From: Bacteroidota bacterium
GTDB taxonomy: Bacteria; Bacteroidota; Bacteroidia; Chitinophagales; Chitinophagaceae
Length of the DNA stretch: 64,000 nt
Assembly (NCBI GenBank): GCA_018267625.1
Contig: JAFDYC010000110.1
Span: 1 to 64,000, forward strand
Reading direction: 5' to 3'
Position numbers and translations under genes: made by a program. The notes beneath the pieces are model-generated. The model did not search any database. It was not told the DNA's origin and saw nothing but the letters and a program-made list of their open reading frames with translations. Shown here one piece after another: positions 44,720 to 64,000 of this stretch (within the stretch, counting starts at the first letter, position 1; every line of letters starts with the position of its first letter).

Positions 44720-45742
44720 ATGGCTCTAGACCTTACAAATAAGTCTGTTTTAATCACTGGAGGTACAGGCTCATTGGGGAAAGCATTAACGAAAACGATT
44801 CTTACTCGTTGGCCTAATATAAAACGATTGGTCATTTATTCCCGTGATGAGCAGAAGCAGTTTCAGATGGCGTTTGAATATCCGGATAGTAAGTATCCGA
44901 ACATTCGGTTTTTTATTGGCGATGTGCGTGATTATGACCGGCTTAAGCGGGCGTTTAAAGGGATAGATTACGTTATCCATGCTGCGGCAATGAAACATGT
45001 GCCGATAGCAGAGTACAATCCGGATGAATGCGTTAAGACAAATGTCAATGGGGCGGAAAATGTAATCCGCGCTACATTAGAGACTTCAGTTCAAGGTGTT
45101 GTTGCGCTTTCTACCGACAAGGCATGTGCGCCCATTAATTTGTATGGTGCCACTAAACTGACTTCGGACAAGCTGTTTATAGCGGCTAATAATATCAGGG
45201 GTGACAACCCGGTCAAGTTTTCCGTGGTTCGGTATGGCAATGTGATGGGGTCCAATGGTTCTGTCATGCCTTTCTTCCTGAAGCGCAGGCATTCCGGGGT
45301 GATTCCGATAACGGATCCCAATATGACCCGCTTCAATATCTCGTTGGATGAAGGGGTGAATATGGTGCTACATGCTTTGGAGACTGCCTGGGGTGGTGAG
45401 TTGTTTGTACCTAAAATTCCCTCGTATCGCATCACGGATGTGGCAACGGCCATTGCTCCCGACTGTACTCAGGAAGTGATTGGCATCCGGCCCGGTGAAA
45501 AGGTACACGAGGAAATGATAACACCTTCTGACTCATTTACTACCTATGACTTGGGTAAGTACTACGTCATTCTGCCCCAAACAACTAACTGGAAGCTGGA
45601 TGATTTTATCCGGCAATTTGACGCCAAAAAAGTACCCGTTGGCTTCAAGTATAATTCCGGCGAAAACGACGAGTGGCTTGATGTCCCTAGCTTACGTCGG
45701 TTGATTCGTGAACATGTAGATCCAGAATTTAATGTTTCCTAA
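44720..45742 (+). CDS. pseB: UDP-N-acetylglucosamine 4,6-dehydratase (inverting)
   Basis: First step of CMP-pseudaminic acid synthesis: dehydration with C5 inversion of UDP-GlcNAc. The 340-residue short-chain dehydrogenase-type protein has the nucleotide loop TGGTGSLGKAL, YSRDEQKQFQM, HAAAMKHVPIAEYNP, STDKACAPINLYGATKL with the Tyr/Lys pair, and RYGNVMGSNGSVMP. These are PseB marks and separate it from retaining dehydratases. pseC starts 11 bp inside its 3' end. Confidence 0.95.
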   Translation: MALDLTNKSVLITGGTGSLGKALTKTILTRWPNIKRLVIYSRDEQKQFQMAFEYPDSKYPNIRFFIGDVRDYDRLKRAFKGIDYVIHAAAMKHVPIAEYNPDECVKTNVNGAENVIRATLETSVQGVVALSTDKACAPINLYGATKLTSDKLFIAANNIRGDNPVKFSVVRYGNVMGSNGSVMPFFLKRRHSGVIPITDPNMTRFNISLDEGVNMVLHALETAWGGELFVPKIPSYRITDVATAIAPDCTQEVIGIRPGEKVHEEMITPSDSFTTYDLGKYYVILPQTTNWKLDDFIRQFDAKKVPVGFKYNSGENDEWLDVPSLRRLIREHVDPEFNVS

Positions 45743-46913
45743 TATACTTAAAGCAGAATTTGCTGCTATTCACTATGGAAAGCAGCACATTACCGATGAG
45801 GACATCGCAGCCGTTGCAACTACTCTTCGCTCCGATTACCTGACCCAGGGGCCGAAAATTGCTGAGTTCGAGTCGGCATTTGCAGAGTATGTGGGTGCTA
45901 AATACGCTGTGGCAGTAGCAAATGGTACGGCCGCCTTGCATTTGTGTACGCTAGCACTTGGCGTAAACGAAGGCAGTAAGGTGATTACAACACCGATAAC
46001 TTTTGCAGCCTCAGCCAATTGCGTACGTTATTGTGGTGGCCAAGTTGTGTTCGCAGACATAGACCCCGAGACGGCCACACTGGATATTGATAAGGTTCGT
46101 GACTGGCTCAGCGAGGCCCCGAAAGGAACTTACGCTGGAATTATTCCGGTTGATTTTGCCGGTTATGCCGTCAATCTGGAAGCTTTTCGTAGTCTGGCCG
46201 ATGAATATGGCTTGTGGATTATTGAAGATGCTTGTCATGCACCGGGTGGCTTCTTTACGGATAGTCAGGGTATTCGGCAGCATTGCGGAAATGGAACGTT
46301 TGCTGACCTGGCCATTTTCTCCTTTCACCCGGTGAAACACATAGCCTGTGGAGAAGGGGGCGCAATTACTACGAATAGTAAGGAGTTGTATGAGAAACTG
46401 CTGATGTTGCGGACGCATGGTATTACCAAAGACCCAGCCCTGATGCATGAAAATCATGGCGGCTGGTATATGGAAATGCAGGAATTGGGCTATAACTACC
46501 GGCTTACTGATTTTCAAGCTGCCTTAGGCTTGTCGCAATTGAAGCGTGCAGACGAAGGACTGGCCCGCCGAAGGGAAATTGCGAAACGTTATGATGAGGC
46601 TTTTGCCAACACAAAGGTTCTCCCACTTACGCCGCCGCAGGATGGTGGACATGCCTATCACTTATATGTGATTCAGGTTGCCGACCGGAAGGGTTTATAC
46701 GACTACCTACGCAGCAAAAATATTTTTGCCCAGGTGCATTATATACCTACTCATTTAATGCCTTATTACCAGCAGTTTGGGTATAAGAATGGCGATTTCC
46801 CGCTTGCAGAATCATATTACAGACAATGTTTGAGCCTGCCTATGTATCCAACTCTAACTCATGAGGAGCAGGATTATGTGATAAGTCAGACCAAATCATT
46901 TTGTAGTCAATAG
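45732..46913 (+). CDS. pseC: UDP-4-amino-4,6-dideoxy-N-acetyl-beta-L-altrosamine transaminase
   Basis: Second step: PLP-dependent transfer of an amino group to C4 of the PseB product. The 393-residue DegT/AHBA-fold enzyme has ITDEDIAAVATTLRSDYLTQGP, ANGTAALHL, IIEDACHAPGG and the PLP lysine K202 in FHPVKHIACGEGG. The first ~10 residues (MFPNILKAEF) go beyond the usual PseC start, but no better start codon is seen; it overlaps pseB by 11 bp. A 124-bp gap to pseG follows. Confidence 0.94.
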   Translation: MFPNILKAEFAAIHYGKQHITDEDIAAVATTLRSDYLTQGPKIAEFESAFAEYVGAKYAVAVANGTAALHLCTLALGVNEGSKVITTPITFAASANCVRYCGGQVVFADIDPETATLDIDKVRDWLSEAPKGTYAGIIPVDFAGYAVNLEAFRSLADEYGLWIIEDACHAPGGFFTDSQGIRQHCGNGTFADLAIFSFHPVKHIACGEGGAITTNSKELYEKLLMLRTHGITKDPALMHENHGGWYMEMQELGYNYRLTDFQAALGLSQLKRADEGLARRREIAKRYDEAFANTKVLPLTPPQDGGHAYHLYVIQVADRKGLYDYLRSKNIFAQVHYIPTHLMPYYQQFGYKNGDFPLAESYYRQCLSLPMYPTLTHEEQDYVISQTKSFCSQ

Positions 46914-47037
46914 GTTGTCGAACTTACTATGCTTGCATGAGAAATCATGAAATTAATAAATGAGCAACTTAATAGTATTTTTGAAATCATTGTTAGTTAA
47001 GTGAGTAATACTTCGATTTCAGTAAAATTCTTTTGTG

Positions 47038-48066
47038 ATGGCCATTGAATTGAATAAACCACTTCTTGTCCTCCGAGCAGATGGAAGTGAGCTAATTGGG
47101 CTTGGACATATTTATCGATGCATTGCACTAGCAGATATCTTGCATGACCTGTTTGAAGTTCATTTTTATTCCAGATTGATAACCGCGACAGTTAGTAGTG
47201 AAATCCTCCGGTACTGTGACAGATATTTTGAATTGCCTTCAAATGTTGATTATGTTGATGAAGCCAGGTTATGGGTAAATGGCTTTAGTGGATCAGAGAT
47301 TGTTGTATTAGATGGATATCAATTTACTAATGCGTATCAATCTGAACTCTACACCAAGGTTAAGAAGCTGATTTGCATAGACGACATTAACGTTGAAGAC
47401 TTTTGCGCTGATGGGGTCATAAATCACGTAATTGGAACAAGTAATGTTGAAATGAAGCGGCTCAACTCTACCCAGTTATTTCTTGGAGCTGATTTTGCAA
47501 TCCTTCGTAAGCAATTCTTATTGGCTGCACTTGAAAGCAGATATCAGCCACCTGCGCATAAGACCTTTTTTGTCGCAATGGGTGGTGCTGACCTGCATAA
47601 CGCAACGCTGTCAATACTTATGACACTCCTTGTTTCATATCCATCTGCAACATGTCATATTGTGCTTGGCAAGGCATACTCGCATCGAAACACGTTGGAT
47701 TCGTTTGGTAATTTCCAAAATATCCAATTTCATGTGGGTATTGAAGCAGATGAATTAATTAAGCTATTGGGTTCTTCTTCTTTAGCTATTTGTCCTGCAA
47801 GTACTATCTCATATGAAGTGATGTGCTTAAACATTCCGTTAGTGACAGGATATATATCAGACACTCAGAAGCATGTAGCAGTTAAATACCAGGATTATGG
47901 TATAGCATTAAACGTTGGGTCCCTGTTATCTGCTGATACAGCCTTGATTAACGCAATAAATTATTTGGAATGTAATTTTCACGAAATGGTTCAAGCTCAA
48001 AAACGATTTTTTCATGGTCAATCACTTTCTAATTTAAGAAGCATCTTTAAATCAATGGCAGCATGA
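47038..48066 (+). CDS. pseG: UDP-2,4-diacetamido-2,4,6-trideoxy-beta-L-altropyranose hydrolase
   Basis: Fourth step: removes UDP from the bis-acetamido sugar. The 342-residue GT-B-like protein has RADGSELIGLGHIYRCIALADIL (PseG start with the catalytic-type histidine in GLGH), VVLDGYQF, FVAMGGAD and the SLAICPASTISYEV motif. Start ATG at 47038; a GTG three bases earlier is possible. The gene is very AT-rich. A TATTTTTG box at 46976-46983 may be an internal promoter. It overlaps pseH as ATGA. Confidence 0.9.
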   Translation: MAIELNKPLLVLRADGSELIGLGHIYRCIALADILHDLFEVHFYSRLITATVSSEILRYCDRYFELPSNVDYVDEARLWVNGFSGSEIVVLDGYQFTNAYQSELYTKVKKLICIDDINVEDFCADGVINHVIGTSNVEMKRLNSTQLFLGADFAILRKQFLLAALESRYQPPAHKTFFVAMGGADLHNATLSILMTLLVSYPSATCHIVLGKAYSHRNTLDSFGNFQNIQFHVGIEADELIKLLGSSSLAICPASTISYEVMCLNIPLVTGYISDTQKHVAVKYQDYGIALNVGSLLSADTALINAINYLECNFHEMVQAQKRFFHGQSLSNLRSIFKSMAA

Positions 48067-48557
48067 TTGCACTTGTTCCATTTGGGGAATCGCATTTAGA
48101 TAATACATTTCACTGGTTGTCATCCAACAGATTACAGGTGGAATTTTTGCTTCGGCGCAATATATCATATGAAGAGCATGTTACTTGGTTTGAGCACTAC
48201 AAAGCAGATGAATCACAAAAAATTTTCGCAATTGAGTACGATGGTTTACATTGTGGGAATTGTGGGTTTAAGTTAATTAATCATATTGATAGCAAGGCAG
48301 AACTATGGATTTATTTAGGTGAATCTTACTTGGAAGGGAAGGGTATTGCATTTCAATCCCTGACGAAGCTAGTTAATATTGGTTTTTCCGTAATTGGCCT
48401 TCGCAAAATATACCTACATGTAGCTGATTTTAATACCAAGGCGCTTAGTTTGTATAGAAAATTTGGATTCCAGGAAGAAGGGAAATTTGTCAATGATTTT
48501 TTTATTGACAACCAATATATTAGCATATTTAGATTATACATAGCTAAAGATAGATAA
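48063..48557 (+). CDS. pseH: UDP-4-amino-4,6-dideoxy-N-acetyl-beta-L-altrosamine N-acetyltransferase
   Basis: Third step: acetylates the C4 amino group using acetyl-CoA. The 164-residue GNAT protein fits PseH in length and in HWLSSNRLQVEFLLRRNISYEEHVTWF, the GNCGFKLINHIDSKAELWIYLG strands and GLRKIYLHVADFNTKALSLYRKFGF-type motif B. Identity as PseH rests on both sequence style and position. It overlaps pseG (ATGA) and the next gene (TAATG). Confidence 0.88.
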   Translation: MIALVPFGESHLDNTFHWLSSNRLQVEFLLRRNISYEEHVTWFEHYKADESQKIFAIEYDGLHCGNCGFKLINHIDSKAELWIYLGESYLEGKGIAFQSLTKLVNIGFSVIGLRKIYLHVADFNTKALSLYRKFGFQEEGKFVNDFFIDNQYISIFRLYIAKDR

Positions 48558-49324
48558 TGACAAAGAAAATTGCAATAATGCAACCAACTTTTAACTCTTG
48601 GTTGGGCTTGTTTGATATGATTGACAAGGTAGATACTTTTGTATTTTATGATGATGTGCAGTTGACAAAACGAAGTTGGCAGGTGCGTAATAGAATTTTA
48701 ACAACAAACGGAGAGTTGTTTCTCACTATTCCTATAACAAAGAGTGCCCACCGCGATGAAATTTTAATTTTATCCGCTGAAATTAATTATAAGGAAAATT
48801 GGATGGACAAACACATAAAATCAATAGAAATGGCATACAAAAAATGCCCATTTTATTTCGAAGTATTTGAGGTTCTTGAACAACATTATCAAGAGAAAAT
48901 TAAAACGCTTTCTGAATTCAACTGCTCATTGATCAACAGAATCTTAAGTAAGATTGGCATCAATACTAATACTTTACGGTCTTCCGATTTATTTAGAATT
49001 GAAGGCACAAAAGATTCACGACTTGTAAATATATGCAAATCATTGGGTGCATCTACATACCTTTCTGCATGCGGTTCCGCTAATTATATCGAGTTACTTA
49101 GCCCTGGTGGCGAATTCACTAAACACGGAATTAATTTACTTTACCACAATTACTCTATACAAAGCTATCCTCAAATTCAAACAAACAAATTCGTTCCTTA
49201 TATGGGAATATTTGACCTACTGTTTAACGTTGGTTTTAATGAAGCATTGGCATATATCAGAAAGGGAAGGGAAGAGGATTACGGGTATCTCGAATACAGG
49301 AAAACGGTATTAAATATTGATTAA
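48557..49324 (+). CDS. WbqC family protein in the pse operon
   Basis: A 255-residue WbqC protein with the classic opening IAIMQPTFNSWLGLFDMIDKVDTFVFYDDVQ, then TKRSWQVRNRILTTNGELFLTIPI and the C-terminal YLSACGSANYIE segment. Family members sit in sugar clusters, but the reaction is not firmly assigned. Its start codon shares a base with the pseH stop, and pseI follows after 9 bp, so it is embedded in the pathway; it may modify an acyl group or the sugar (inference). A second WbqC gene is at 29877. Very AT-rich. Confidence 0.9.
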   Translation: MTKKIAIMQPTFNSWLGLFDMIDKVDTFVFYDDVQLTKRSWQVRNRILTTNGELFLTIPITKSAHRDEILILSAEINYKENWMDKHIKSIEMAYKKCPFYFEVFEVLEQHYQEKIKTLSEFNCSLINRILSKIGINTNTLRSSDLFRIEGTKDSRLVNICKSLGASTYLSACGSANYIELLSPGGEFTKHGINLLYHNYSIQSYPQIQTNKFVPYMGIFDLLFNVGFNEALAYIRKGREEDYGYLEYRKTVLNID

Positions 49325-49333
49325 TCTACATTT

Positions 49334-50374
49334 ATGCAAATTGAATCTTCAAAGATATCAAGGAACAAGCCGCCCTTCATTATTGCCGAAATGTCCGGCA
49401 ATCACAATCGTTCGCTGGAGCGGGCGATGACGATTGTAAAGGCGGCTGCGGATGCAGGGGCTCACGCGCTCAAGTTGCAAACGTACACACCGGATTCCCT
49501 CACGATTGATCATCGAGGTGGGCTGTTCGACATTAACGATCCGAATTCGCTTTGGGTAGGGCGCAACTTGTATGAGCTATATCAAGAAGCTCGCACACCC
49601 TATGAATGGCACAAGCCCTTGTTTGACTACGCGAAGGAATTGGGAATCATTATTTTTTCCACTCCTTTTGATGCGGAAGCAGTAGATTTGTTGGAAGATT
49701 TAGGGGCACCTGCGCATAAAATTGCTTCTTTTGAAAACAATCATTATCCGCTGTTAAAGAAAGTAGCAGCGACGGGTAAGCCGATCATTATGTCTACAGG
49801 TGTGTCGTCGCTTGAGAATTTGTGCGGTGCGGTTGAAATTTTGCGAACAGGCGGGTGCAAAGATCTGGCACTCCTGAAGTGTACCAGCACCTATCCTTCT
49901 ACACCGGAAAACACCAATCTGAGAACCATCCCACACATGCGGGAATTGTTTGGTTGTGAGGTAGGCCTGTCGGATCATACAATGGGGATAGGGGCTGCAG
50001 TAGCCGCGGTAGCTTTGGGCGCTACAGTCATTGAAAAGCACTTTTGCCTTAGCCGGGCAGAAGGTGGCGTGGACAGCGCTTTTTCATTGGAACCACATGA
50101 GCTAAAAGCCTTGGTGGTAGAAACCGAACGTGCATGGCAATCGCTGGGTAAAGTGCAATACGGAATTCAAGAGGCGGAACGCAAGAGCTTGAATTACAAG
50201 AGGTCTATTTATGTGGTAAAGGATATTCAGGAAGGGGAAGAATTTTCAATTGAAAATGTAGCCATTATCCGTCCCGGAGATGGCATGGAACCGAAGTACA
50301 TTGAAGGCATACTTGGCCGCACGGCTCGGACAGCCATAAAACGGGGCACTGCCTTGACTTGGGAACTGATTTAA
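49334..50374 (+). CDS. pseI: Pseudaminic acid synthase
   Basis: Fifth step: condenses the free bis-acetamido sugar with phosphoenolpyruvate. The 346-residue protein has the NeuB-like barrel (FIIAEMSGNHNRSLERAM, HALKLQTYTPDSLTI, STPFDAEAVDLLEDLGAPAHKIASFE, MSTGVSSLENL, LKCTSTYPSTPENTNL, GLSDHTMGIG) and a C-terminal SAF antifreeze-like domain (RRSIYVVKDIQEGEEF-type, GRTARTAIKRGTAL). The NHNRSLERA and SFENNH marks fit PseI over NeuB. GC is higher than in the genes just before. Confidence 0.94.
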   Translation: MQIESSKISRNKPPFIIAEMSGNHNRSLERAMTIVKAAADAGAHALKLQTYTPDSLTIDHRGGLFDINDPNSLWVGRNLYELYQEARTPYEWHKPLFDYAKELGIIIFSTPFDAEAVDLLEDLGAPAHKIASFENNHYPLLKKVAATGKPIIMSTGVSSLENLCGAVEILRTGGCKDLALLKCTSTYPSTPENTNLRTIPHMRELFGCEVGLSDHTMGIGAAVAAVALGATVIEKHFCLSRAEGGVDSAFSLEPHELKALVVETERAWQSLGKVQYGIQEAERKSLNYKRSIYVVKDIQEGEEFSIENVAIIRPGDGMEPKYIEGILGRTARTAIKRGTALTWELI

Positions 50375-50391
50375 ACCTTTCTATACTTCGC

Positions 50392-51084
50392 ATGAAAAAG
50401 TCAATAGCTATTATTACGGCGCGTGGCGGAAGCAAGAGGATTCCACGAAAGAATATCAAAAGCTTTTCCGGGAAGCCGATCATCTGTTACTCCATTGAAG
50501 CAGCCCTCAGCTCCGGAATATTTGATACTGTAATGGTTTCCACTGACGACGAAGAGATTGCGACAGTAGCAAAGCAAGCGGGGGGCGAAGTTCCTTTTTT
50601 GCGTTCGGCGGGCGCATCAAACGATTTTGCTACAACGGCAGACGTGTTGGCGGAGGTGTTGGAGCAGTACCAAGCAATTGGACAATCGTTTCAATACAGT
50701 TGCTGTATTTATCCAACGGCGCCTTTTGTCACTGCTGATAAGTTAAAAACTGCATTTGAAATACTACAACAAACTCATGCAGATTCCGTAATACCGGTAA
50801 CGCGATTTAGTTTTCCAATATGGCGCTCTTTTCATATGAAGGAAGGAAAATTGGAGTATAACTGGCCAGAACATGCCAAGACGCGTTCCCAGGATCTCCC
50901 CGCCTCGTTTCATGACTGCGGGCAATTTTACTTCTTCGATACCGCGAAATTCATAGAAACCAAATCGTTGGTTTCTGCGAACACTTTTGGGATTGAAGTA
51001 CCGGAATCGGAGGTGCAGGATATTGACAATGAGGAAGATTGGAAAATTGCAGAAATGAAGTATTCCATGTATCATAACCGATAG
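50392..51084 (+). CDS. pseF: CMP-pseudaminic acid cytidylyltransferase
   Basis: Last activation step: joins CMP to pseudaminic acid. The 230-residue protein has the nucleotide-binding ITARGGSKRIPRKNIK motif, GKPIICYSIEAAL, VMVSTDDEEIA and the ending EVQDIDNEEDWKIAEM. Start at ATG 50392 (MKKSIAIITARG), 17 bp after the pseI stop. Confidence 0.93.
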   Translation: MKKSIAIITARGGSKRIPRKNIKSFSGKPIICYSIEAALSSGIFDTVMVSTDDEEIATVAKQAGGEVPFLRSAGASNDFATTADVLAEVLEQYQAIGQSFQYSCCIYPTAPFVTADKLKTAFEILQQTHADSVIPVTRFSFPIWRSFHMKEGKLEYNWPEHAKTRSQDLPASFHDCGQFYFFDTAKFIETKSLVSANTFGIEVPESEVQDIDNEEDWKIAEMKYSMYHNR

Positions 51085-54433: not shown

Positions 54434-55657
54434 ATGAGGATTCTTATAATTGTTCAACCAGACCGGATTGATCACTATCAATATTTAGCTCAAGATACTA
54501 CATCCGAATATTGTTTACTTTGGTATGAAAAAAGAGAACTTGTCCAAGTTAATTTTGAGCAGCTACCCATTAAATTCTCTACTGTCGCCTTTTGGAAAGA
54601 TTATGCTACACCCAAAGCACTTATCAAAAAATTGCAGCCTGACAAGATTGTCTTCTTTGAAATAATTGACCTTCGACAAATTGCCCTAATTTCTGCCGCC
54701 CATGCAATGGGAATCAGTACTTTTTATTTGGAGCATGGCGCTGCAGGAGACCGAAATACGACTATTGCCCGTTGGCAGGAAATTACATTTGTGGGTAGCA
54801 AGCTACCTTATTTGTTTAATCGCCTTCGTAAGGCCTTGCCCGATGTAATAGCATCAAAGTACTTTTACTATTCCCAACAATCCGGCTTCAAATCACTTTC
54901 AAGCCGATTAAAGTATAATTTCCTGCCCTTTAAGCTGGCATTAAAAGGGCCCAATGAGGGTTTATCTGAGAGCATATTCCCCGAACGGATTCCGAAATAC
55001 GCCATTTGCTTTAATCAAGCCAACCTGGAAGCTTTTCAGACCTATACGGGAATCAGTAAGGATAAAGCTTTACTTATCGGTATCCCGTTTTTTGATCACT
55101 ATTTCAGGTCCGAACATAAAATTGGGAATTATGTGGTTTTTATTGAACATCCTTATCTAGAACAAAAGAACTTTAATTGGAATGATGATTTTCATTCAAA
55201 AGTGGCTCATACCATTTACGCTTTTGCAACGAAACGTAAGCTAAAGGTTTATGTCAAATTACATCCGCGTTCAAATATGGCCAATTGGAGTCGATATAAT
55301 TTTGATCCACAATTTGTCGAAATTATCCAGGAAGGCGACTATACACAATTGTATTTAGAAAGTAGATTGATTATAGGCTATAGCTCCAGCCTAATGACCG
55401 GTTTTCTTTGTGCAAAAAAGAATATTGTACTCTTGGGCTGGAATCCTGAACCTCGCATTTTTGGTAGCGATTTCTCTGCAACCGGCCTTTGTCGTAAATC
55501 ATTAGACATGTCCGATCTTGAAAATAAGTACGACTATTGGGTGGCCAATAATTTATGTAATGAATCTGAAAACTATCAGGCGTTTTTAAAACGATATAAC
55601 TACCCCTTCGATGGTAAGGCCACCCAACGGGTTATTGACGCTATCCATTCGCTTTGA
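54434..55657 (+). CDS. Candidate nonulosonic-acid/capsule glycosyltransferase (HP and SSS motifs)
   Basis: A 407-residue protein with no signal or membrane span. STFYLEHGAAGD in the first half and KVYVKLHPRSNMANW followed by LIIGYSSSLMTGFLCAKKN in the second match the HP and S(S/T) motif pair of bacterial sialyltransferases and CDP-glycerol-type transferases. Given the CMP-Pse pathway upstream, transfer of pseudaminic acid is the leading guess; a teichoic-acid-like transferase is the alternative. AT-rich. The stop overlaps a TTG start of the flippase (TTGA). Confidence 0.7.
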   Translation: MRILIIVQPDRIDHYQYLAQDTTSEYCLLWYEKRELVQVNFEQLPIKFSTVAFWKDYATPKALIKKLQPDKIVFFEIIDLRQIALISAAHAMGISTFYLEHGAAGDRNTTIARWQEITFVGSKLPYLFNRLRKALPDVIASKYFYYSQQSGFKSLSSRLKYNFLPFKLALKGPNEGLSESIFPERIPKYAICFNQANLEAFQTYTGISKDKALLIGIPFFDHYFRSEHKIGNYVVFIEHPYLEQKNFNWNDDFHSKVAHTIYAFATKRKLKVYVKLHPRSNMANWSRYNFDPQFVEIIQEGDYTQLYLESRLIIGYSSSLMTGFLCAKKNIVLLGWNPEPRIFGSDFSATGLCRKSLDMSDLENKYDYWVANNLCNESENYQAFLKRYNYPFDGKATQRVIDAIHSL

Positions 55658-58126: not shown

Positions 58127-58291
58127 GTGCTACTATTAAACCCATATATCGTTAACGGATATCTAACTGGTGAATAACGAACTGTGTATGATGCATGGTA
58201 TTCGTGAGACTATCACTATTGAAGTCACTTGCGTTAACAGCCAGCAGCCTGTTTTTCCAAGACGAATCACGGAACTTTGCTGCCCAATATT

Positions 58292-60196
58292 ATGTGCGGA
58301 ATAGCCGGCTTCGCCGATTTTAAACACCAAAGCAACGAGACGCAGCTCCAGGGCATGGCCGCCTGCATGGCCCACCGCGGCCCCGACGGACAACACCTTT
58401 GGATGACCCAAACGGATAAGGCCCAGCTTGGCTTTGCCCATGCCCGCCTCTCCATCATTGACCTCAGCCATGCCGCCGACCAGCCCATGCACTTTGAAGG
58501 GCTGAGCATCGTCTTCAACGGGGAGATATACAACTACAACGAAATCCGGGACGAGCTGATCGCCCTCGGCCACAGCTTCCAAACCCACAGCGACACCGAA
58601 GTCATCCTGCACGGCTGGAAAGAGTGGGGGCCGGATTGCATCCACAAATGGCGGGGCATGTTTGCCATCGTGTTGCATGATGCCGAAAAGCAAGAACTGA
58701 TTTGCATGCGCGACCGCGCCGGCGTGAAGCCCTTTCACTACTCCTTTCAGGACGGCCTCTTCCTCTTCGGCTCTGAGCTGAAATGCCTGATGGCGCATCC
58801 CCGATTTCAGAAGGAAATTGACCCGGCTGCCGTAGCATCGTTCCTGCAATATGGCTGTGTCTCCGGCGCCCATTCCATTTTCAGGAACACACAAAAATTG
58901 TTGCCGGGCCATATCCTGACGTTCAATCTGCAGACCCAGGAAATCACTACCCGACAGTATTGGAATGTGTACGACTACTACAATAAACCCAAGCTGAACA
59001 TCGCCCTGCCGGAAGCTATTGAAGAGACTGAACGCATTCTGAAGCAATCCTTCGAATACCGCATGGTGGCCGACGTGCCCGTAGGCGTGTTCCTCAGTGG
59101 CGGCTACGACAGCACCTGCGTGACGGCCCTGCTGCAAAGCGGCCGCACCGAGAAACTGAAAACCTTCACCATCGGCACGACCGATGGCAAGATGGACGAA
59201 GCCCCCTTTGCCAAAGAAATCGCCCAGCGCCTCGGCACCGACCACACAGAATACTATTGCAGCGTCAAAGAAGCTTTGGACATCATCCCCACGCTGCCGC
59301 AGTATTACGATGAGCCTTTTGCCGACAGTAGTGCCATCCCCACCATCCTCGTGAGCAAGATGGCGCGCCAAAAGGTGACCGTCGCCCTCTCCGCCGATGC
59401 GGGAGACGAGATTTTTGCAGGCTACAATCGCTACGATTACATCAGCCGCTACGGCAATAAACTGGCTTCAATTCCTAAACCCTTACGCAAGATGGCCGCG
59501 GCGATGATGGAAGGGGTTTCCTCGGAAAGCATACCGGTGCTGAAGCACAAAGCCAATTTTCACAGCCGCTACGACAAGCTCAAAAACCTGCTCAACGACC
59601 CCTCGCCGGCAGAGTTGCTGAAAAACCTGAGCCAGGTCTTTAGCGATAAAGAGATTCAAAACCTGATGGCCGCACCCGTGCCGCCGCTGAAGACCGCCCA
59701 CACCAGCGACGAACTGAAGCCAGAAGCGTACGATGCCCTCTCCTTCATGATGGCGGTGGACTACCAAACTTATATGGTGGACGACATCCTGCAGAAGGTG
59801 GACCGTGCCACCATGAGCGTGTCGCTGGAGGGCCGGGAGCCGTTTCTGGACCAGCACATTATTGAGTGGGCGGCGCAGCTTCCTTCCGACTACAAATACC
59901 ACAAGGGCATCAAGAAATATCCTTTGCGGCAAATCGTACACAAATACGTTCCGAAAGAGATGATGGATCGCCCGAAGATGGGATTCGGCATTCCCGTAAA
60001 CGACTGGCTGCAGGCAGAGTTAAAGCCCCTCGTGATGGAGTATTTCAGCGATGTCGCCCTCAGCCACGGGCTGTTCCGCAAGGAGGGCATAAAAAAATTG
60101 CTGGACGAATTCTACACCGGCCGCACCGAAAAATATTTGAAGCTCTGGTACCTCCTCATGTTCCAGATGTGGTATCAAAAATGGATGTCGGCATGA
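58292..60196 (+). CDS. asnB: Asparagine synthase (glutamine-hydrolysing) family amidotransferase
   Basis: A 634-residue two-domain enzyme. Start at ATG 58292 puts the catalytic cysteine at position 2 (MCGIAGFADF), as needed for the class II glutaminase. HRGPDGQHLW, LSIIDLS and VFNGEIYNY follow. The synthase domain has the PP-loop LSGGYDSTCVTALL, and SADAGDEIFAGYNRY. In polysaccharide loci, AsnB-type enzymes often amidate a uronic acid or similar sugar, so free asparagine may not be its product (inference). It overlaps the next gene by four bases. Confidence 0.93.
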   Translation: MCGIAGFADFKHQSNETQLQGMAACMAHRGPDGQHLWMTQTDKAQLGFAHARLSIIDLSHAADQPMHFEGLSIVFNGEIYNYNEIRDELIALGHSFQTHSDTEVILHGWKEWGPDCIHKWRGMFAIVLHDAEKQELICMRDRAGVKPFHYSFQDGLFLFGSELKCLMAHPRFQKEIDPAAVASFLQYGCVSGAHSIFRNTQKLLPGHILTFNLQTQEITTRQYWNVYDYYNKPKLNIALPEAIEETERILKQSFEYRMVADVPVGVFLSGGYDSTCVTALLQSGRTEKLKTFTIGTTDGKMDEAPFAKEIAQRLGTDHTEYYCSVKEALDIIPTLPQYYDEPFADSSAIPTILVSKMARQKVTVALSADAGDEIFAGYNRYDYISRYGNKLASIPKPLRKMAAAMMEGVSSESIPVLKHKANFHSRYDKLKNLLNDPSPAELLKNLSQVFSDKEIQNLMAAPVPPLKTAHTSDELKPEAYDALSFMMAVDYQTYMVDDILQKVDRATMSVSLEGREPFLDQHIIEWAAQLPSDYKYHKGIKKYPLRQIVHKYVPKEMMDRPKMGFGIPVNDWLQAELKPLVMEYFSDVALSHGLFRKEGIKKLLDEFYTGRTEKYLKLWYLLMFQMWYQKWMSA

Positions 60197-61551: not shown

Positions 61552-62808
61552 ATGATCAACGTAGTTTCTTTCAACGGCGGCAGAGGCGCAAAAAACCTCA
61601 TTCCCGCCCTCATGGGCATCAATGGCATCAACCTCACTTCCATCGTCAATGCGTATGATGACGGCAAGAGCACCGGCCTCATCCGCGCCTTCTTCAACAT
61701 GCTGGGCCCGTCAGACATCCGAAAGGTGCAGGAAGCAATGGTGCCCAAAGAATTGAGCGACTACGATGCCATCCTCCGGGCCTACGATTTCCGCTATCCG
61801 GAAAGTGAAACACGCGACAGCATTCTGAAAGCACTGAAGGCATTCGCCGATGGCGCCACCGATGAGCTTAGCGCCATCCGCTTTCAGGACAAGACCATCC
61901 GCGAATCATTGCGTGTGTTTATCCAAACGCTGCTGCGGGGCATTCACCTGACCGAGCAGGCTCAGGGCAAGACCTTTTCGTTCCACGATTGCTCGCTGAT
62001 GAACCTCATTTATGCCGGCGCGTACCTGCATTTCGGGCACAACTTCGAAGAGGCCACACTCTTCATTGACCGGCTCTTTAAGCTGCGTGGTACCGTGCTG
62101 CCCACTTCCAACGAAGACCGTAAGCTGGTAGCCATCCGCGAAGACGGAACCATCTTATTTTCTGAAGCAGAAATCGTGGAGCTACGAGCTAATTCCCGCA
62201 TCAAACGCATCTACCTGCTTGACCAATATCCCGACCGTGACAAGCTGAGCAAGATGAGTATGGCCGAGGTGGAGGCATATTTCGACATGGCCAACCGATT
62301 GGTAAACGCCACCAGCCGTGTGACTCAAAGTATTGCCCAGGCAGATATCATCATTTACTCACCCGGCACGCAACACTCCTCGCTGTATCCTTCTTACATG
62401 ACGGCTGGCATCACTGATGCAATTGCAGCCAATAAGAAAGCACTGAAAGTATTCATCACCAACATCGGCGAAGACTATGAAACGCCGTCCTATGATGCTA
62501 ACGACTTCATCGAAGGGGGTATCCGTTACATGCGCATGGGCTCGGAATACGAGATTGATGTGAATGATTTAATCAGTGTGGCATTGGTCAACAATCGCTT
62601 CTCCACCAACCTGGAGAACTATGTGAAGTGTGATGATGCTCGCCTGACTCAGATTGGCTGTCCCGTGATTATTGATGCTTTTGAAGATGAAACCGCACCT
62701 GGTAAACACAACGGCACGCTGCTCTCCAAATTTATCATAGACCTCTACGAGCGCCGGATGAATCTGGGTCGCGAAAAGCAAAAGCAACATGAGCATATTG
62801 TCGGGTAA
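61552..62808 (+). CDS. CofD/YvcK-like protein (2-phospho-L-lactate transferase family) in a polysaccharide locus
   Basis: A 418-residue protein with the family P-loop-like start VVSFNGGRGAKNLIPALMG, then SIVNAYDDGKSTGLIR, MLGPSDIRK and later IIIYSPGTQHSSLYPSYM and VFITNIGEDYETPSYDAND. CofD makes the F420 phospholactyl diester; YvcK/GlmR binds UDP-GlcNAc. No F420 gene is near. It overlaps a HAD phosphatase by 20 bp, then a GT2, so it likely makes or transfers an activated, perhaps phospholactyl-like, group onto glycan (inference). It is longer than typical CofD (~310). Confidence 0.8.
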   Translation: MINVVSFNGGRGAKNLIPALMGINGINLTSIVNAYDDGKSTGLIRAFFNMLGPSDIRKVQEAMVPKELSDYDAILRAYDFRYPESETRDSILKALKAFADGATDELSAIRFQDKTIRESLRVFIQTLLRGIHLTEQAQGKTFSFHDCSLMNLIYAGAYLHFGHNFEEATLFIDRLFKLRGTVLPTSNEDRKLVAIREDGTILFSEAEIVELRANSRIKRIYLLDQYPDRDKLSKMSMAEVEAYFDMANRLVNATSRVTQSIAQADIIIYSPGTQHSSLYPSYMTAGITDAIAANKKALKVFITNIGEDYETPSYDANDFIEGGIRYMRMGSEYEIDVNDLISVALVNNRFSTNLENYVKCDDARLTQIGCPVIIDAFEDETAPGKHNGTLLSKFIIDLYERRMNLGREKQKQHEHIVG

Positions 62809-63460
62809 GCGGGCCCTGCTGCTCGATTTTGACGGCACACTCGGCGATACCTTTTCGCTCCATGAACAGGCCTTCCTGAAAACCCTGGCTCCTTACCAGA
62901 TTTCGTTTGCCTACAAAGACTACATCGGCCAAAGCACCGGTGAAGTATTCGAACGCATTTTCAAGAAGGCAAATCGAGACTTTGCCCCGGGTGAGTTAGC
63001 TGTGCTGGTGGCGGCTAAGCGTAAAGCGGCCAATGAGCTTTATGCCACGCATCTCCGCTTCATTGATGGTGCGGAAGCTTTTGTGCATCAGGCGCATCGC
63101 CTGGGCTACAGCTTGGCCGTAGGTTCTTCGGGCTCGCGCAAAAATATCCTGGCCGGCATTGAAGGGCTGGGGCTGGCTCCCTTTATCACCGAAATCATCA
63201 CCGCCGATGATGTGCAATATGGCAAGCCCCACCCTGAAATTTTCGAGAGCCTGCTACACCGGTTGCAGGTGCCTGCAGCGGAGGCCCTGGTGGTGGAAGA
63301 TGCCCCCTCGGGCCTTGCGGCTGCACTGGAGGCGGGTATTGAGGTAGTCTGTATAGACCCTGAGCTACGCGATAGCGAATACGGAAATCATCCAACTGTT
63401 CACTTTGCGACCTTCGCGCAACTTTCGGAGGCACTCGTGCCGCCGGTTTTTACCGAATGA
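62789..63460 (+). CDS. HAD-superfamily hydrolase (phosphoglucomutase-like)
   Basis: A 223-residue HAD protein. Motif I is LLLDFDGTLGDT, motif II SSGSRKN, motif III a lysine in QYGKPHPEIF, motif IV VVEDAPSGLAAAL. The helical cap fits the beta-phosphoglucomutase/phosphatase class. It overlaps the CofD-like gene by 20 bp and the GT2 gene by four, so the three are translationally linked. It probably removes phosphate from an intermediate of that cassette. Confidence 0.92.
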   Translation: MSILSGKRALLLDFDGTLGDTFSLHEQAFLKTLAPYQISFAYKDYIGQSTGEVFERIFKKANRDFAPGELAVLVAAKRKAANELYATHLRFIDGAEAFVHQAHRLGYSLAVGSSGSRKNILAGIEGLGLAPFITEIITADDVQYGKPHPEIFESLLHRLQVPAAEALVVEDAPSGLAAALEAGIEVVCIDPELRDSEYGNHPTVHFATFAQLSEALVPPVFTE

Positions 63461-64000
63461 CAGAGGCAAAAAATGTATTGGCCGTTGTGGTTACCTACAA
63501 CCGGCTGGAACTGCTCAAACGCTGCGTGGCGCACCTGCAACAACAGGAGGCCTGTCCTGATTTGCTCATCATTAATAACACCTCACCGGACGGTACGGAG
63601 GCCTGGCTGAAAGCGGAGAAATTGAACTTCATCACCCAGCCCAATGGTGGTTCCTCCGCAGGTTGGAAGACGGGTATTGAACAGGCCATCAACCGGGGCT
63701 ACGAGTACGTCTGGCTCATGGACGATGACGGCTTTTCGCACCCCGAAGCCCTGAAAAAGTTGTTGGCCAACATCACACCGGAAACCGCTATTCTGTCTTC
63801 CATTGTCGTAAAAGAAAACAAACCGGATGAGTTTGTATTTGGCCTGCCGGTGGTGAACAACAAGCAGCAACCCGTCGTCTTTGCACGCAAGCGCAAGTAT
63901 GCCTCCTTCGCCGAACTGCCGCAGGGCATACGCCAATATCCCTTTGCCCATCTTTTCAATGGCGCACTCATCAACCTGAGTCTCGCGCGAAAGACGGAGA
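63457..64000 (+). CDS. Glycosyltransferase family 2 (3' truncated by the window end)
   Basis: The first 181 residues of a GT-A glycosyltransferase: NVLAVVVTYNRLELLKRCV, LIINNTSPDGTEAWL, QPNGGSSAGWKTGIEQA and the metal-binding DDD in WLMDDDGFSHPEAL. The GG(S/A)xG and long spacing recall galactofuranosyltransferase-like GT2 proteins. Start ATG overlaps the HAD stop (ATGA). The end lies outside the window. Confidence 0.9.
   Translation, partial: MTEAKNVLAVVVTYNRLELLKRCVAHLQQQEACPDLLIINNTSPDGTEAWLKAEKLNFITQPNGGSSAGWKTGIEQAINRGYEYVWLMDDDGFSHPEALKKLLANITPETAILSSIVVKENKPDEFVFGLPVVNNKQQPVVFARKRKYASFAELPQGIRQYPFAHLFNGALINLSLARKTE

Follow-up and report, generated by a model that had tools for sequence, protein, structure and literature searches.

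The window analysed here, meaning the whole stretch of 64,000 bp, covers positions 1-64000 of a contig of 84,852 bp from a 3.0 Mb, 100%-complete genome. The original prediction had described three genes at its end as a tight unit, with overlaps of 20 and 4 bp, encoding a CofD-like protein, a HAD phosphatase and a GT2 glycosyltransferase. The open reading frames were found exactly as described and Pfam searches confirmed their families. The features of the cassette are the following:

61552..62808, + strand: CofD-like protein of 418 aa (PF01933, 1.6e-35, 123 bits; curated cut-off 30 bits)
61657..61662, + strand: codons of D36-D37 of the CofD-like protein, DDG motif (alignment of 18 members)
61714..61716, + strand: codon of D55 of the CofD-like protein, within the clade motif LGPSDIRKVQ (alignment of 18 members)
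62789..63460, + strand: HAD-superfamily hydrolase of 223 aa, beta-PGM/CbbY-like (PF13419, HAD_2, 1.7e-29, 103.7 bits)
62825..62833, + strand: codons of HAD motif I, D13-F14-D15 (from sequence)
63457..64000, + strand: GT2 glycosyltransferase of 299 aa, of which the first 181 aa lie inside the window; the gene ends at contig position 64356 (PF00535, 7.4e-18)
Contig 64357-65094, outside the window: MobA/GlmU-type nucleotidyltransferase of 245 aa (PF12804, GlmU-like)

The CofD-like and HAD genes overlap by 20 bp and the HAD and GT2 genes by 4 bp, while the nucleotidyltransferase gene follows that of the GT2 with zero gap, and the next gene beyond it lies on the opposite strand. The predicted grouping of CofD, HAD and GT2 is thus real but incomplete: the cassette consists of four genes, in the order CofD-HAD-GT2-nucleotidyltransferase, at the end of a surface glycan locus. 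The search for the same gene order in other genomes, which the original prediction had suggested, located it in a sister species, where CofD-HAD-GT2 are found in unchanged order and the contig breaks at the GT2 end. The sister nucleotidyltransferase (63% identity) is encoded from base 62 onwards on a different contig, the first bases of which complete the GT2 frame. The conservation of both the three-gene order and the nucleotidyltransferase argues that the cassette is not a chance arrangement.

Upstream of the cassette, the locus encodes PseB, PseC, PseG, PseI and PseF, all scoring above the NCBIfam cut-offs, together with WbqC, a polysaccharide flippase-like protein, an asparagine synthase-like protein and GT4 glycosyltransferases. 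The pseudaminic acid pathway genes occupy positions 44720-51084 of the window and are directly preceded by a UDP-GlcNAc 2-epimerase gene. The asparagine synthase-like gene (window 58277-60196) also lies beside the cassette in the sister species, which in addition has a PF13489 methyltransferase gene between the GT4 and CofD-like genes (L006, 9079-9963) that is absent from this position in the window genome. At 54434-55657 of the window, one protein is similar to both polysialyltransferase (PF07388) and CDP-glycerol glycerophosphotransferase (PF04464), and may possibly be a sialyl/pseudaminyl or a polyol-phosphate transferase. The F420 ligase (PF01996) was absent in a profile search of the complete genome, in agreement with the earlier description of a glycan cluster free of F420 genes. 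UDP-galactopyranose mutase was also absent from the genome.

The CofD-like protein is the only member of the CofD/YvcK family in the genome, and its PF01933 score and predicted fold place it in the CofD superfamily. None of the three subfamilies compared accommodated it. The model of ordinary YvcK/GlmR (TIGR01826) scored 112.5 bits against a cut-off of 196, and the neighbours are glycan genes, without the rapZ-yvcK-whiA context that is seen, for contrast, in Priestia. The GAK CofD-like model (TIGR04357) was the highest-scoring NCBIfam model at 129.3 bits, yet far under its cut-off of 340, and no GAK neighbours (ATP-grasp enzyme or HprK-related kinase, as in annotated GAK loci) were seen near the cassette. 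A CofD/FbiA role in F420 biosynthesis was rejected on the absence of the F420 ligase. Neither of the two outcomes that the original prediction had named as telling against it was observed: the protein is not an ordinary YvcK orthologue, being below the cut-offs of both TIGR01826 and TIGR04357 and rare in relatives, and its key active-site-like positions are kept.

The AlphaFold model (pLDDT 86) matched YvcK/GlmR over the whole chain with a Z score of 33.9 (Z about 33 for 2HZB, 2O2Z and 2PPV), and FbiA and CofD (6UW3, 3C3D) with Z of about 21. Residues D36 and D55, the counterparts of which in YvcK lie in the DDG and GDIR motifs, were invariant in 18/18 aligned members, while position 37 was D, N or A. 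By motif, D36-D37 are matched to D40/D41 of GlmR (PMC10128056), and D36/D55 may be equivalent to the metal ligands D45/D57 of FbiA (PMC7253369); by analogy with FbiA D57, D55 is likely the second metal ligand. The DDG motif is common to the CofD-like protein and YvcK/GlmR, and Asn304 aligns with the YvcK residue that contacts UDP-sugar/NAD. The protein differs from YvcK/GlmR in its length (418 aa compared to about 320), in carrying LGPSDIRKVQ where YvcK/GlmR have PPGDIRN, and in a genomic context of glycan or phage DNA-glycosylation genes. With CofD/FbiA it shares the superfamily and the fold, it appears to keep the candidate metal aspartates, and a logic of nucleotidyltransferase partner and acceptor is possible, although its partner is GlmU-like rather than CofC.

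The window HAD scored 101.9 bits with TIGR02009, below the cut-off, and 76.5 bits with the beta-phosphoglucomutase model TIGR01990, where the cut-off is 189.4; its top PDB match was CbbY (4.7e-14). Residues D13 and D15 of motif I are presumably the nucleophile and the acid/base, following the family rule, and the protein is proposed to be a sugar-phosphate phosphatase. The GT2 was weakly similar to the galactofuranosyltransferase GlfT1 (NF050113, 78.1 bits, cut-off of 330 not reached), and a PDB sequence search with it gave nothing at E 0.001. For the nucleotidyltransferase, PF12804 scored 57.8 bits (cut-off 27), and the sequence AAGKGSR..YPK fits the G-x-G-S-R...PK signature of the MobA-like NTP transferase domain. 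Its family profile had GlmU as the top PDB match, and the protein is of the sugar-1-phosphate nucleotidyltransferase type (GlmU N-terminal domain). It is not a full GlmU, since TIGR01173, a model that includes the acetyltransferase domain, gave 73.4 bits against a cut-off of 366.85 for this protein of 245 aa. CofC was also considered, with a sub-threshold match only, and the GlmU type fits better.

The CofD-like gene is rare and accessory in the Bacteroidota genomes sampled. Besides its own genome, it was found in 1/38 relatives, the second carrier being the sister species of the same genus (70% CofD identity), while two further congeners contain neither the CofD-like gene nor the nucleotidyltransferase. 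No other CofD-like match was found in samples of 295 genomes of the class and 395 of the phylum, and a scan of genome contigs for further bacterial homologues retrieved the sister species only.

Homologues were found in phages, and the cassette can be linked to phage DNA-glycosylation operons. In the huge-phage genome LR756500, the CofD-like protein is fused to a HAD domain and a nucleotidyltransferase is encoded 1.2 kb downstream. The clade motif LGPSDxRKNQ occurred in 26 viral contigs and the window-type KVQ variant in one more; in the first scan of viral contigs, the CofD::HAD fusion with the HAD nucleophile motif was present in 17/17 distinct full-length proteins. Where the viral contigs extend far enough, the nucleotidyltransferase nearly always adjoins CofD::HAD, and most of the contigs encode a T4-type DNA beta-glucosyltransferase (PF09198, phrog_7922) upstream. 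The assignment of the latter is supported by PF09198 scores of 81.7 and 64.2 bits (cut-off 27) and by an alignment with 1bgt at 3.1e-37. In locus L033 it is replaced by a TET-associated glycosyltransferase (TAGT, PF20691; 6402-7373) upstream of CofD::HAD, while no glycosyltransferase was recognised in the L024 stretch, and L014/L092 has CofD::HAD without a nearby nucleotidyltransferase. A different arrangement was seen in L066 (IMGVR_UViG_3300033463_000045), where the CofD-like protein stands alone and the nucleotidyltransferase carries the HAD fused to its N-terminal end. None of the Pfam models scored this HAD half, which was identified from its motif and from its resemblance to the phage HADs. 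Beside the CofD operon of L066, a 438 aa open reading frame (1483-2799) resembles a dNMP kinase fused to a thymidylate-synthase/hydroxymethylase-like protein.

The model of the phage HAD domain matched alpha-phosphoglucomutase/phosphomannomutases (Z 16.6) and trehalose-6-phosphate phosphatases (Z 16.0), which is a tie. The window and phage HADs belong to different subfamilies, class IA and class IIB respectively, and both fall in groups rich in sugar-phosphate enzymes. In every thymidylate-synthase-like protein near the phage operons, the residue that distinguishes dCMP hydroxymethylases is Asp, and dNMP kinases are common, so that the phages with the operon probably carry hydroxymethylcytosine. 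With their hydroxymethylase-like protein, dNMP kinase and T4-type beta-glucosyltransferase, the operons resemble the T4 DNA glucosylation and RB69 modules. In the arabinosylation module of RB69, NTP-transferase-like and sugar isomerase-like genes are the proposed source of UDP-arabinose for the DNA (PMC6024577); in contrast to the operons described here, no CofD is named in the description of that module.

The association of the parts was examined in reverse, by retrieving viral loci with the glucosyltransferase alone (n=50). Both CofD and the nucleotidyltransferase were present in 33/50 loci (including L099, where CofD was located on the contig but beyond the retrieved stretch), CofD only in 1, the nucleotidyltransferase only in 0 and neither in 16. 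The linkage between CofD and the nucleotidyltransferase was significant (Fisher p 3e-12; 4e-10 without loci of 90% identical glucosyltransferases), although the loci are kin and the p value overstates their independence. The query glucosyltransferases were taken from CofD loci, which biases the CofD fraction upward but does not explain the linkage. PHROGs contains no family for the CofD::HAD fusion, a search of the phage collection for annotated isolates with the operon gave a metagenomic assembly only, and no paper joining CofD with phage glycosylation was found in the literature searched.

Taken together, these data point to a route to an activated sugar that is undescribed so far. We propose, with moderate confidence, that the CofD-like protein, the HAD and the GlmU-like nucleotidyltransferase are successive enzymes leading to an unusual nucleotide-activated sugar, which the neighbouring glycosyltransferase would use. 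The CofD-like enzyme, through a nucleotide and metal site, would phosphorylate, or add a phospho group to, the anomeric position of a sugar phosphate; the HAD would then strip the remaining, older phosphate to give a sugar-1-phosphate, and the nucleotidyltransferase would couple this to a nucleotide, probably from UTP. The GT2 would place the sugar on the surface glycan, and in phages the T4-type or TAGT transferases would place it on hydroxymethylated DNA. GDP-heptose synthesis proceeds by a similar logic, with a sugar kinase for anomeric phosphorylation, the HAD phosphatase GmhB and a nucleotidyltransferase; the proposed step order would be the same, except that a CofD-like enzyme would stand in place of the sugar kinase.

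The step order is suggested by the fusions: the HAD is joined to CofD in most phages, joined to the nucleotidyltransferase in L066 and free in the bacterium, and so would act between the two. Sugar-phosphate substrates are indicated by the nucleotidyltransferase profile, nearest to GlmU, and by the HADs, nearest to sugar-phosphate enzymes. That the bacterial pair and the phage proteins have a common function may be inferred from their shared parts, motifs and fusions, while in an unrooted tree the window pair falls between YvcK/GAK and the phage clade, on a branch that is long. Several observations count against the proposed donor pathway. Anomeric phosphorylation is outside the known chemistry of the CofD fold, and, as in T4, UDP-glucose from the host could serve the phage glucosyltransferases. 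The mismatch in HAD subfamily, the locus L014/L092, the long branch of the window pair and the scores of the window nucleotidyltransferase, which are higher with GlmU models than in comparison with the phage enzymes, also weigh against it.

A scheme nearer to the original prediction would follow the logic of CofC and CofD: the nucleotidyltransferase would make an NDP-X, the CofD-like enzyme would move phospho-X to a hydroxyl and free NMP, and the HAD would trim a phosphate, leaving a phosphodiester substituent on the glycan or on the glycosylated DNA of the phage. This chemistry is documented for CofD/FbiA, where a hydroxyl attacks the beta-phosphate of an NDP-linked acid (PMC7253369), the residues equivalent to the metal ligands appear to be kept, and the nucleotidyltransferase belongs to the same broad MobA-like superfamily as CofC, which it matches below threshold. 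We nevertheless regard it as unlikely, though deserving some weight, given that GlmU sugar-1-phosphate uridylyltransferases are the first matches of the nucleotidyltransferase profile, that fusion of the HAD to either neighbour suggests a middle step, and that the glycosyltransferase, a constant partner, is not needed in such a scheme. Thus, of the donor for the GT2 that had been predicted, a role in supplying a nucleotide sugar is plausible, whereas a lactyl or other phospho-organic acid or a phosphodiester product is less favoured in view of the GlmU-like nucleotidyltransferase, the sugar-phosphate type of the HADs and the middle position of the HAD in the fusions, which an NDP-sugar route fits better.

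The CofD-like protein could instead be an accessory uridylyltransferase of the GlmR kind, or a regulator that senses UDP-sugars, with its neighbours doing ordinary NDP-sugar work. YvcK/GlmR are its nearest structures, GlmR makes UDP-GlcNAc by uridylyl transfer from UTP to GlcNAc-1-P (PMC10128056) and YvcK binds UDP-sugars (PMC5482804). This is nonetheless improbable: a dedicated nucleotidyltransferase beside nearly every CofD::HAD would be redundant, fusion to a HAD suggests a pathway enzyme rather than a regulator, the protein scores below the TIGR01826 cut-off, and the position of GlmR N198 is read from the alignments as Ser or Thr. That an ordinary YvcK-type protein has come to lie beside unrelated glycan-locus genes by chance is scarcely tenable; both bacterial genomes are from one genus, and their gene order could be inheritance, but the same parts recur in many phages in two fusion arrangements, with near-perfect co-occurrence of CofD and the nucleotidyltransferase, and no other match appeared in the Bacteroidota samples.

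With regard to which sugar the proposed donor pathway would activate, the leading guess is a hexofuranose, which is a weak lead. The only lead in the literature is the beta-(1->6)-glucofuranan capsule locus of M. fermentans (PMC11658790), where the synthase is accompanied by a nucleotidyltransferase and by a CofD-family gene split in two. Compared by its published description alone, this locus is like the present cassette in having a glycan synthase, a CofD-family gene and a nucleotidyltransferase side by side, and unlike it in that the CofD gene is split and a HAD is unmentioned. Together with the weak likeness of the GT2 to GlfT1 and the lack of UDP-galactopyranose mutase in the genome, it makes a furanose a reasonable guess, no more, and the lead would be weaker if the CofD of M. 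fermentans is truly dead. We give a low probability to the specific proposal that the CofD-like/HAD/nucleotidyltransferase route makes a nucleotide-activated hexofuranose such as UDP-glucofuranose. Such a donor would account for the M. fermentans glucofuranan and supply a furanosyl GT2 in the bacterium, and large phages would use it to attach a furanosyl sugar instead of plain glucose to their hydroxymethylcytosine DNA.

The proposed donor pathway would probably be a new role for the CofD superfamily, beyond the F420 assembly and GlmR functions for which it is known to date, and predicts one sugar-nucleotide pathway common to bacterial surface glycans and phage DNA hypermodification. If true, the DNA of phages with the operon would be decorated with an unusual sugar, which would affect restriction and the evasion of defences, and a residue with an as yet undescribed donor could occur in bacterial polysaccharides.

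Single CofD/YvcK-family genes were also encountered in other settings. A plasmid search retrieved, besides distant proteins of the GAK/YvcK kind, a single gene from Acaryochloris; this gene (L008, 7983-9080, Acaryochloris marina plasmid pREC4) encodes a stand-alone CofD-like protein of the phage clade, with 37.5% identity to the huge-phage protein, and no HAD or nucleotidyltransferase was recognised nearby. In the record of Microcystis phage MaAM05 (L050, 1561-8094), a YvcK-like gene lies beside genes annotated as panB, panC and pxpA.
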